From NCBI RefSeq assembly GCF_013408795.1, contig NZ_JACCCC010000001.1, positions 2,666,001 to 2,730,000 of the forward strand: a stretch of 64,000 nucleotides of DNA, read 5' to 3'. The translations under genes were made by a program, and so were the position numbers. The number at the start of each line of letters is the position of its first letter. Within the stretch, counting starts at the first letter, position 1. This document shows positions 1,841 to 3,517 of the stretch, piece by piece. The notes under the pieces are model-generated. The model had not been told where the DNA came from. It searched no databases and saw nothing but the letters and a program-made list of their open reading frames with translations. The DNA is from Spinactinospora alkalitolerans. Its GTDB lineage: Bacteria > Actinomycetota > Actinomycetes > Streptosporangiales > Streptosporangiaceae.

Positions 1841-2208
1841 TCTCGTCAGCTTTCTCCCACAGCGCGGTGGCTCCGGAAGAACGCCGAGGACGCGCCGGGC
1901 GGCGAACATGGCTGCCCGGGCCCGTGTCCGGCCGTCGCGCTCCTGTTAATCCTCCGGTCCGCGTGTTGATAACGAAAACGAGAGGAAGCCGACTTTTTGA
2001 CCTCCTTCGTCCTACAAGAACGCTGCGAGCCTTACATTGGCCGTCGACGCTGTCAACGTCGTGCGCCGGTGATGCGCGTTCCGGTCGAAACCGGGGGGAG
2101 AAGGTCCCGAAACGGAGGAATCCCCGCAGGGCGCGCCAGACGGGCACGAGACCGCTTCGCCGCCCCCGGGGCGAACGGGTACCCTGAAGTGTCGTCGAGC
2201 GAGACCAG

Positions 2209-2316
2209 GGATGCGGGAGGTGGGGCCTGATCATGAGCCGACCTCCAAGTAGCGGCTGCTAGTTCCGCATCCTCATGGCGCGCACCGCGCGGCCACCCGG
2301 GGCGCCGCCCCGCGTG
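2209..2316 (+). promoter_or_regulatory. structured corA leader: three-way-junction RNA plus GC-rich hairpin
   Basis: Seen in the sequence: GGATGCGG (2209-2216) pairs perfectly with CCGCATCC (2265-2272). Inside it, GAGGT (2217-2221) pairs with ACCTC (2241-2245), and TAGC (2250-2253) pairs with GCTA (2258-2261). Together they make a compact three-way junction. A strong hairpin follows: CGGGGC (2298-2303), loop GCC, GCCCCG (2307-2312), with flanking CAC/GTG pairs. A -10-like TACCCT sits at 2180-2185. The element ends about 45 nt before the corA ATG and contains a 9-codon ORF. It does not match the M-box or any other riboswitch consensus I know. A regulatory role is inference. Confidence 0.45.
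2233..2262 (+). CDS. putative 9-aa leader peptide of corA (MSRPPSSGC)
   Basis: ATG at 2233 to TAG at 2260-2262, with a purine-rich GGAGGTGGGG stretch 7-17 nt upstream. The Pro-Pro codons (2242-2247) lie in the 3' arm of the second leader hairpin, and the stop codon lies in the third. Ribosome progress through this ORF would therefore change the RNA fold. Pro-rich leader peptides are established Mg2+/proline sensors for mgtA/mgtCBR in Salmonella. An analogous role before corA is inference. It could be chance, since a 9-codon ORF is not rare. Confidence 0.35.
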   Translation: MSRPPSSGC

Positions 2317-2359
2317 CCCGGCGGTCGCCGTCCCAACGAACTCGCCCCGGGAGCGTCCC

Positions 2360-3517
2360 ATGTCGCAACGGCGCATGCGCGCATGGCTGCCGAGCCTGCG
2401 CGCCAACGGCCACTCCGCCCGCCGCGCCGCCTCCCCGGCGCCGGAGTACTCGATGGACCCGCGCGCGGCCGAGCCCGCCTCCTCCCCGCCGGTGGAGGAG
2501 AGCGTCATCGACGCCGCCGTCTACGTGGACGGCCGCCGCCGGTCCGGCCCCACCGACCTGACCGAGCTGCACCGGTCGGTGCCCCGCACCCCCGGCGCCA
2601 TGGCCTGGATCGGCCTGTTCCAGCCGGCCGAGGCCCAACTGGTGGCCGCGGCCGAGGAGTTCGGCCTGCACGAGCTGGCGGTGGAGGACGCGATCGTCGC
2701 CCACCAGCGGCCCAAGCTGGAGCGTTACGGCGACACGCTGTTCGTGGTGCTGCGCGCGGCCCGCTACGTCGACGCCGTCGAGGAGGTGCAGTTCGGCGAG
2801 CTCCACCTGTTCGTCGGGCACGACTTCGTGCTGACCGTGCGGCACGGCCGGGCCCCCGACCTCGGCGAGGTGCGCCGCCGCCTGGAGGCCGACCCCGACC
2901 TGCTGCGGCTGGGGCCCGAGGCGGTGCTCTACGCCGTCCTGGACGCGGTCGTCGACGGCTACGCCCCGGTCGTCGCCGGTCTGCAGAACGACATCGACGA
3001 GATCGAGACCCAGGTCTTCAACGGCGACCCGCAGGTGTCCCGGCGCATCTACGAGCTGTCCCGCGAGGTCATCGAGTTCCAGCGCGCCGCGCGTCCGCTG
3101 CTGGGTATCCTGCGCGGCCTGGCGGCGGGCTTCGACAAGTACGGCACCGACGAGGAGCTGCAGCGCTACCTGCGCGACGTGGCCGACCACGCCACGATCG
3201 TGGCCGAGCGGGTCGACGGCTTCCGCCAGATGCTGCAGGACATCCTGGCCGTCAACGCCACGCTGGTCAGCCAGGCCCAGAACGAGGAGATGAAGCACCT
3301 CACCGAGGCCAGCTACACGCAGAGCGAGGAGGTCAAGAAGATCTCCTCCTGGGCGGCCATCCTGTTCGCGCCGACCGTGGTCGGCGGGATCTACGGGATG
3401 AACTTCGACGTCATGCCCGAGACCCACTGGGCCTACGGTTACCCGATGGCGGTCGGGCTGATGTTCCTGGTGAGCCTGGTGCTGTTCGTGATCTTCAAGC
3501 GCCGCGACTGGCTGTGA
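2360..3517 (+). CDS. corA: magnesium/cobalt transporter CorA
   Basis: 385-aa CorA-family channel. The large cytosolic N-terminal domain ends in a long helix, followed by two membrane segments near the C-terminus (about 330-350 and 357-378). The family signature YGMNF sits at the end of the first segment. The protein ends with the usual basic tail KRRDWL. It carries Mg2+ (also Co2+/Ni2+) across the cytoplasmic membrane as a pentamer. The first 45 residues are a low-complexity Arg/Ala extension. The ATG at 2360 gives a normal family length and lies after a CGGGAGCG stretch. The gene is convergent with idi, 18 bp apart. A structured leader with a mini-ORF precedes it. Confidence 0.93.
   Translation: MSQRRMRAWLPSLRANGHSARRAASPAPEYSMDPRAAEPASSPPVEESVIDAAVYVDGRRRSGPTDLTELHRSVPRTPGAMAWIGLFQPAEAQLVAAAEEFGLHELAVEDAIVAHQRPKLERYGDTLFVVLRAARYVDAVEEVQFGELHLFVGHDFVLTVRHGRAPDLGEVRRRLEADPDLLRLGPEAVLYAVLDAVVDGYAPVVAGLQNDIDEIETQVFNGDPQVSRRIYELSREVIEFQRAARPLLGILRGLAAGFDKYGTDEELQRYLRDVADHATIVAERVDGFRQMLQDILAVNATLVSQAQNEEMKHLTEASYTQSEEVKKISSWAAILFAPTVVGGIYGMNFDVMPETHWAYGYPMAVGLMFLVSLVLFVIFKRRDWL

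Follow-up and report, generated by a model that had tools for sequence, protein, structure and literature searches.

A Pro-Pro-Ser upstream ORF before actinobacterial Mg2+ transporter genes, a candidate leader peptide

In Actinomycetota, a very short upstream ORF (uORF) with a Pro-Pro-Ser core precedes Mg2+ transporter genes of three unrelated types, CorA, MgtE and NRMT. From sequence comparison, this association makes a strong but indirect case for a role of the uORF in Mg2+ homeostasis. We consider it fairly probable that the uORF encodes a leader peptide through whose translation Mg2+ transporter genes are regulated, in the manner of mgtL and corL, and our analysis suggests that many actinobacteria tune magnesium uptake by the ease with which ribosomes pass through it. 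The original prediction, that corA of an actinobacterium has a proline leader peptide resembling mgtL, is supported by the conserved core, by its codons and by the association with three transporter types.

The uORF and corA in the window

In the window, the 64,000-nucleotide stretch of Spinactinospora alkalitolerans DNA analysed here, a nine-codon ORF with a Shine-Dalgarno sequence (SD) had been described upstream of corA, and it is present at 2233–2262 (+): ATG AGC CGA CCT CCA AGT AGC GGC TGC followed by the stop codon TAG, encoding MSRPPSSGC. Upstream of its start, GGAGGTGGGG begins at 2216. The first six nucleotides, GGAGGT (2216–2221, +), are both the SD of the uORF and the 5' arm of a hairpin, since they pair with ACCTCC (2241–2246, +), a 3' arm within the uORF that we assigned from the predicted fold and an alignment. 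The core codons CCT CCA AGT (Pro-Pro-Ser) occupy 2242–2250 (+), codons 4–6. The uORF stop is spaced 97 nt from the start of corA (2360–3517, +), which encodes a CorA-type Mg2+ transporter of 385 aa (Pfam PF01544, E 2.8e-58; NCBIfam TIGR00383, 190.4 bits, slightly under the cut-off of 200.75). GGGAG at 2349–2353 (+), found by eye and separated by 6 nt from the corA ATG (2360), is the likely SD of corA. Relative to this corA gene, CGA CCT CCA AGT around the Pro-Pro pair are rare codons: corA uses CGA for 0 of 34 Arg, CCT or CCA for 0 of 21 Pro and AGT for 0 of 18 Ser.

A putative −10 hexamer of the leader, TACCCT, lies at 2180–2185 (+), and the assignment draws on the enrichment of this pattern across the elements described below. 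Of the 72 elements, 64 have TANNNT 25–65 nt upstream of the SD; mononucleotide shuffles give 14 ± 3. This enrichment would place the uORF near the transcript start; hence, it is probably transcribed as part of the leader, which goes against a corA transcript starting downstream of 2272, a refuting condition set beforehand. A scan with a stricter sigma-70 consensus found no promoter in 1950–2400 of the window, and a scan for intrinsic terminators found none on the + strand. Two further features of the locus lie on the other strand: a gene divergent from corA (1115–1909, −) encodes a GAF-ANTAR protein, ANTAR proteins being a type of RNA-binding antiterminator, and a terminator-like hairpin with a T run lies at 1983–2006 (−) in the upstream region of corA.

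Occurrence before three types of transporter gene

A scan of named actinobacterial genomes confirmed 574 corA loci, of which we retained the best 80. An SD with a short in-frame uORF encoding X-Pro-Pro-Ser near its start was found in 29 of these best 80, with carriers among Thermobifida, Nocardiopsis, Streptomonospora, Actinomadura, Wenjunlia, Rhodococcus, Prescottella, two Streptomyces, one Saccharopolyspora and others. Thus, conservation of the uORF in corA leaders of relatives, a check set beforehand, was observed: the Pro-Pro-Ser core is kept and recurs across the phylum. In the remaining 51 of the best 80 loci, the covariance model yields nothing above 14.5 bits, and among SD-preceded ORFs of 6–30 codons in the 400 nt searched, four have Pro-Pro and none has Pro-Pro-Ser. 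We conclude that the element is not essential for corA. On a tree of the same best 80 CorA proteins its presence switches at least 7 times on firm branches and 10 times by parsimony; the element is scattered, being either ancient and frequently lost or gained several times. Across 30 corA leaders measured, the distance from uORF stop to corA is 63–248 nt.

A DNA search with the whole window leader matched 24 of 60 relatives. L002, the match that was read, holds the element; most of the rest align just with the GC-rich stretch further downstream in the leader and were presumed to be chance matches. We also noted two neighbouring oddities. At about 1204–1230 of the Murinocardiopsis flavida locus (L033), 294 nt before corA, a lone ATG CCT CCA AGT TCA ACT (MPPSST..) opens a longer frame; it has the core codons but lacks the SD stem seen elsewhere, and may be what is left of a decayed or rearranged element. 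The corA leaders of Streptacidiphilus and Kitasatospora (L045 and L050) have in common, about 287 nt ahead of the gene, GAGGAGGTGAGAGC.GTGGAGTGCAGTAGTCCGGG, possibly a leader element of another kind.

To look beyond corA, a covariance model (R1) was built from 25 corA leaders only and run over 394 genomes of the window's class. It gave 29 matches at E ≤0.001: 22 before corA, 4 before mgtE and 3 elsewhere (L125, L144 and L145, beside neither gene). The four non-corA genes encode MgtE, as identified by Pfam for L132 and L129, by NCBIfam for L132, and by tblastn for the other two. The mgtE association was thus found by a model that contained no mgtE leader. A second model (R2), which took in these mgtE leaders, was run in the genomes of three families and in a phylum sample. 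With R1 used in one search and R2 in the rest, all 68 of the 68 distinct genomes with matches of at least 30 bits have them before corA (56) or mgtE (12), a count that favours specificity and is not an independent test, since training sequences are among these genomes. In the window's family, 15 of 100 genomes have a match at E ≤0.001, 13 of these before corA; in three other families, matches were found in 14 of 22 genomes, in 14 of 150, with 5 ahead of a Mg2+ gene, and in 36 of 151, with 35 so placed, and the phylum sample gave 14 of 396. In one genus with mgtE elements (g100), five genomes have 7–11 PPE domains, compared with 2 in each of two Rhodococcus-like genera. Several weak matches were rejected as chance: L165–L174, L209–L214, L216 and L222, beside which tblastn with CorA and MgtE finds neither; L124, L125, L144 and L145, whose neighbourhoods give nothing in tblastn with CorA alone; and L256, beside which tblastn with CorA, MgtE, NRMT and MgtE_N-CBS finds none of the four.

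The phylum search also returned two weak matches in another class (hereafter the second class), L208 and L215, which adjoin genes for proteins with MgtE_N and CBS domains. These MgtE_N-CBS proteins have no MgtE membrane domain, and they have a PRC-barrel-like start that scores under the Pfam cut-off. At L215, the MgtE_N-CBS gene stands next to a gene for an NRAMP-type transporter whose best solved relative is EleNRMT (7qia, E 2.8e-66; next best, 8.1e-24), a Mg2+ transporter (PMC8806188). NRMT proteins of the other second-class loci are 31–38% identical to the L215 protein by tblastn. We fetched MgtE_N-CBS homologues in 198 genomes of the second class (37 matches in 36 genomes; 30 loci examined, the other seven matches having come without a locus) and scanned upstream of the gene, blind to codon choice, for any SD-preceded ORF with Pro-Pro. 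The close homologues comprise 19 loci (L259–L277), one of which has just 73 nt upstream, leaving 18 testable. An (E/D/Q)PPS uORF precedes the MgtE_N-CBS gene in 16 of these 18, L262 and L276 being the testable close homologues without it, and the NRMT gene comes next after the MgtE_N-CBS gene in all 19. The identical scan on 252 tiles of 420 nt from the 19 loci gave 16 matches, which the script leaves unnamed; 15 loci carry the element in their first tile, so the background is about 1 in 237 tiles.

Among the 11 distant or fragmentary homologues, a PPS ORF in front was found only at L286 (TTG start, MPPSTRC, codons CCG CCA TCC). L281, also in this set, has a DPPG ORF in front, and L288 is the same place as L215, where MKPPS sits between the two genes. 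L255 stands before an MgtE_N-CBS gene and its uORF is that of L275. The codon-blind scan replaced a loose pattern, which matched 66 of the 198 genomes, mostly by chance; a further covariance model, R3, matched in only 4 of 198, 3 of them real. Across all 30 loci, L259–L288, the MgtE_N-CBS gene adjoins an NRMT-like gene (the strands of the two differ at L278), and the MgtE_N-CBS protein may be a Mg2+-sensing regulatory subunit.

We then compared the uORFs themselves. The first-class set was obtained by scanning 162 loci and removing 36 duplicates and 54 without a match, which left 72 non-identical elements. The uORF starts 8–12 nt after GGAGG in all 72, with ATG in 66 and GTG in 6. Pro-Pro is preceded by Q (39), E (28) or R (5). 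The first Pro codon is CCT in 67 and CCC in 5, the second is CCG in 27, CCC in 24, CCT in 20 and CCA in 1, and the codon after Pro-Pro is AGT in 70 and AGA (Arg) in 2. The collecting pattern allowed just CCT or CCC at the first Pro and no AGC at Ser, so these counts alone prove little for those two positions. Among the listed strong model matches, whose detection used no codon pattern, the first Pro codon is likewise always CCT or CCC, and AGC does not occur. A weak match on the corA side that the pattern excluded, L123, has CCT CCC GGT, with Gly in place of Ser. In the codon-blind second class, the first Pro codon is CCC in 13 and CCT in 3, Ser is AGT in 16 of 16, and the preceding residue is E (12), D (3) or Q (1). 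After Pro-Pro-Ser, first-class uORFs have 2–12 more codons of variable sequence, giving peptides of 8–19 aa; over both classes the peptides are 8–26 aa with a variable tail, and the common part is PPS plus one neighbour.

Among Pro codons, the MgtE_N-CBS genes of the second class use CCT at 8.5%, CCC at 38%, CCG at 44% and CCA at 9%, with AGT at 4.4% of Ser; for the 29 named corA genes the figures are 3.8% CCT, 47% CCC and 46% CCG, with 5.3% AGT. A first Pro codon ending in a pyrimidine and followed by C, together with an AGU Ser codon, is held in the uORFs and is not needed by the peptide alone. Decoding of CC(C/U)-C depends on m1G37 in tRNA-Pro (PMC6335274, PMC8129111). The Ser codon AGU (2248–2250 in the window) is nearly invariant in the two classes and is explained neither by the hairpin nor by the reading of Pro-Pro.

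RNA structure of the leaders

The original prediction placed the uORF in a three-way junction. The minimum-energy fold of 2205–2276 does consist of an outer stem and two inner hairpins (z −2.04; 4 of 200 shuffles fold as stably). The first inner hairpin carries Pro-Pro in its 3' arm and the second carries the stop codon in its own, and eight perfect pairs can be read from the sequence between 2209–2216 and 2265–2272. To that extent the predicted junction, and the position of Pro-Pro and the stop codon each in an inner-stem strand, stand as features of the predicted fold. The outer stem is not conserved: in an alignment of ten Nocardiopsaceae-type leaders, window included, nine relatives retain 2 to 5 of 7 outer pairs, whereas all six SD/Pro-Pro pairs are present in 10 of 10. 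What exceeds chance is the SD, the uORF, this pairing and the core codons. Nor is the stop-codon hairpin of the window above chance, its longest stem having 5 Watson-Crick pairs against a shuffle mean of 5.9. A strong GC hairpin expected ahead of corA was not borne out, the 100 nt downstream of Pro-Pro folding no better than chance (z 0.03). By itself the window's SD/Pro-Pro hairpin has z −1.92, and the whole leader is of ordinary stability for its composition (z −0.65). We therefore dropped the three-way junction as a regulatory fold, because the SD/Pro-Pro hairpin is the only structure shared among leaders, and that in one class only. The 9 nt at 2296–2304 of the window are complementary to 2343–2351 at the corA SD, as read from the letters.

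In the first class, GGAGGU can pair with ACCUCC, the stretch containing the Pro codons, and these two arms flank the start codon. At least 4 of the 5 GGAGG bases are paired to Pro-Pro in 71 of 72 minimum-energy folds (mean z −3.5), in a set that was itself gathered through the same complementarity. The codons used suit this pairing, with CGA for Arg in 5 of 5, CAA for Gln in 37 of 39 and CCT in 67 of 72 over the commoner CCC. Covariation in this stem, which had been proposed as a check, was weak: in an alignment of 39 sequences (A3), no pair changed on both sides. Inner pairs show a few double changes within lineages. The second class has mostly CCC and deviating SDs (L263, L266, L267) and keeps the PPS codons; by sequence, the pairing looks weakened. 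Because pairing appears relaxed there while the PPS codons persist, we read the uORF as the probable core of the element and the SD/Pro-Pro hairpin as a likely addition.

A second hairpin anchored at the stop codon is significant in 11 of 27 Rhodococcus-type leaders versus 4 of 45 others and is absent in the window; we rejected it as a general part of the element. Second hairpins at or beside the uORF stop were seen in L083, L086, L093, L099, L100, L102, L103, L106, L181, L192 and L199, and among Rhodococcus-type lineages their arms differ yet stay complementary. In Rhodococcus, inspection by eye suggests that the stop hairpin could mask the corA SD with its 3' arm, and we make no claim of it. 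In a consensus fold of L126–L143, codons 9–12 of the longer f21 uORF can pair with about codons 7–10 of corA; this may be masking or coincidence, and with both sides coding and 13 close relatives compared, we do not claim a long-range pairing. No downstream switch common to the lineages was found: the region from uORF to gene varies by lineage. Rfam matched nothing in the window, in 1900–2500 with E up to 10, or in eight representative loci, and the M-box model (RF00380) matched neither the window nor these eight loci.

Proposed function and known systems

In mgtL, slow decoding of CC(C/U) codons switches mgtA on, and catalysis by TrmD needs Mg2+ (PMC6335274); elongation on mgtL depends on Mg2+ owing to its Pro and acidic codons, and translation of corL, which lies in a stem able to mask its SD, is inversely related to corA expression (PMC11552253, PMC6335274). 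By analogy, we propose that a ribosome would bind GGAGG at 2216 and translate the very short uORF, meeting Pro-Pro-Ser at codons 4–6, and that the sensed step would be passage through CC(U/C)-CCN-AGU. With slow passage, the ribosome would remain on the leader, the SD/Pro-Pro hairpin would stay open, downstream folding or termination would be altered and corA would be expressed; fast passage would turn corA down. The likely signal would be low cytosolic Mg2+, acting through slow Pro-Pro decoding, and possible sensors are Mg2+-dependent TrmD methylation (m1G37) of tRNA-Pro, EF-P, or ribosome destabilisation, as for mgtL. In the first class, the SD of the uORF is predicted to fold back onto its own Pro codons. 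Translation of the uORF, stalling, Mg2+ as the signal, the direction of control and a downstream step by Rho, attenuation or SD masking are what we infer from mgtL and corL. Replacement of Ser in the two AGA (Arg) elements and in L123 (Gly) speaks against the leader-peptide reading, as do the 51 of the best 80 corA loci that lack the element, the close homologues L262 and L276 and most of the distant ones without a PPS uORF, the variable region downstream of the uORF, and the AGU codon, for which this reading offers no reason. We offer more tentatively, and with some doubt, a phylum-wide Mg2+ sensor of three codons, in which CC(U/C)-CCN-AGU, placed early in a minimal uORF, would report Mg2+ by way of tRNA modification and Pro-Pro decoding and would have been joined to CorA, MgtE and NRMT genes; where the SD pairs with these codons, the position of the first ribosome would decide whether the uORF restarts.

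We weighed this leader-peptide reading against five others. The conserved unit could be the RNA, with the three-way junction or the SD/Pro-Pro hairpin sensing Mg2+ directly and the ORF incidental. The near-universal first-class pairing, in a set collected by that complementarity, agrees with such a switch, as do the codon choice that suits the pairing and the few lineage-wise double changes in inner pairs; but the second class keeps PPS despite mostly CCC and, in L263, L266 and L267, SDs that do not match by sequence, the outer stem is lost in relatives, the main stem has no double change and Rfam has no match. We regard an RNA switch as unlikely. The uORF could also sense translation stress in general (Pro-tRNA charging, the state of EF-P or ribosome-targeting drugs) and happen to serve Mg2+ genes. 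Precedents are described in the literature, the Salmonella mgtP ORF responding to charged tRNA-Pro (PMC8092293) and an E. coli uORF sensing antibiotics (PMC12121999); such a sensor is nonetheless rather improbable here, since every one of the matches of at least 30 bits precedes a Mg2+ transporter gene, of unrelated families, and none precedes an amino-acid or stress gene.

The remaining alternatives concern the peptide and its ORF. That the in-frame peptide core is conserved would suit a micropeptide acting in trans, for example on the transporter, which we nevertheless think very unlikely: just PPS and one neighbour are common to peptides of such variable length and tail, synonymous positions (CCY, AGU) are constrained, and three unrelated transporters would have to be targets. 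There is scarcely more to be said for a constitutive aid to translation, in which the uORF would supply the main gene with ribosomes through coupling or reinitiation. Leader ORFs have been proposed to raise translation by reinitiation (PMC4833913), but a term search of that paper found no corA, mgtE or magnesium, the stop-to-gene distance in the measured corA leaders is long for reinitiation, and the PPS/AGU core is strict. Finally, the ordinary whole-leader fold of the window would be expected of a chance ORF in a GC-rich leader, an explanation to which we give almost no credence: it is refuted by the conservation and the gene association, 15 of the 16 tile-scan matches being known second-class loci.

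The leader-peptide reading has counterparts in several known systems. In mgtQ of the Salmonella mgtCBR operon, translation of an 8-codon ORF likewise alters a stem that hides the ribosome-binding site of a Mg2+ transporter gene; unlike the element here, mgtQ acts through Asp/Glu codons, lies within the operon and contains a single Pro that is dispensable for the translation effect (PMC8092293). The uORF-containing M-box leaders of M. tuberculosis (pe20) are also actinobacterial, linked to Mg2+ and equipped with a conserved small ORF, but they are built on the M-box aptamer RF00380, which has no match here, and have a different peptide (PMC12810186). RAPP/RGPP arrest peptides share Pro-Pro arrest in upstream ORFs, Actinomycetota included; they place Arg-Ala/Gly-Pro-Pro close to the C-terminal end of longer proteins, most of which bear a localisation signal (PMC12992588), whereas here PPS lies near the N terminus of the 8–26-aa peptides, and neither RAPP nor RGPP forms the core of the listed uORF peptides. 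The mgtE motif, a candidate riboswitch of Thioalkalivibrio, is another candidate mgtE leader; it differs in being a structured RNA reported from Thioalkalivibrio only, with no uORF mentioned in the passages of PMC11109978 that present it. In the open-licence literature we found no report on this actinobacterial uORF; subscription papers and preprints lie mostly outside that body, so a report elsewhere is possible. Within the portions of the literature found, the closest actinobacterial work is that on the M. tuberculosis M-box uORF and the RAPP/RGPP peptides, which concerns a different element and a different motif.

The nearest parallels are thus mgtL and corL, which lead mgtA and corA in Salmonella and E. 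coli. Going by the papers' accounts, the actinobacterial element resembles them as a uORF with Pro codons in a Mg2+ transporter leader, in its CC(C/U) codons needing m1G37 (72 of 72, limited by the collecting pattern, and 16 of 16 codon-blind) and in lying inside a stem able to mask its own SD, here in 71 of 72 first-class predicted folds. Unlike them, it has a single Pro-Pro pair followed by Ser-AGU, precedes CorA, MgtE and NRMT genes, is known here from Actinomycetota, the sole phylum searched, and shows no sequence likeness beyond the Pro codons, judging from the sequences quoted in the papers. In the literature found, Mg2+-transport leader peptides that use Pro codons are described from enterobacteria. 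If our reading is true, a counterpart in Actinomycetota before three unrelated families would make slow Pro-Pro decoding a broader bacterial read-out of Mg2+; the compact, strict motif lets one ask which of tRNA m1G37, EF-P and ribosome stability does the sensing, and Mg2+ uptake genes could be recognised by their leader.
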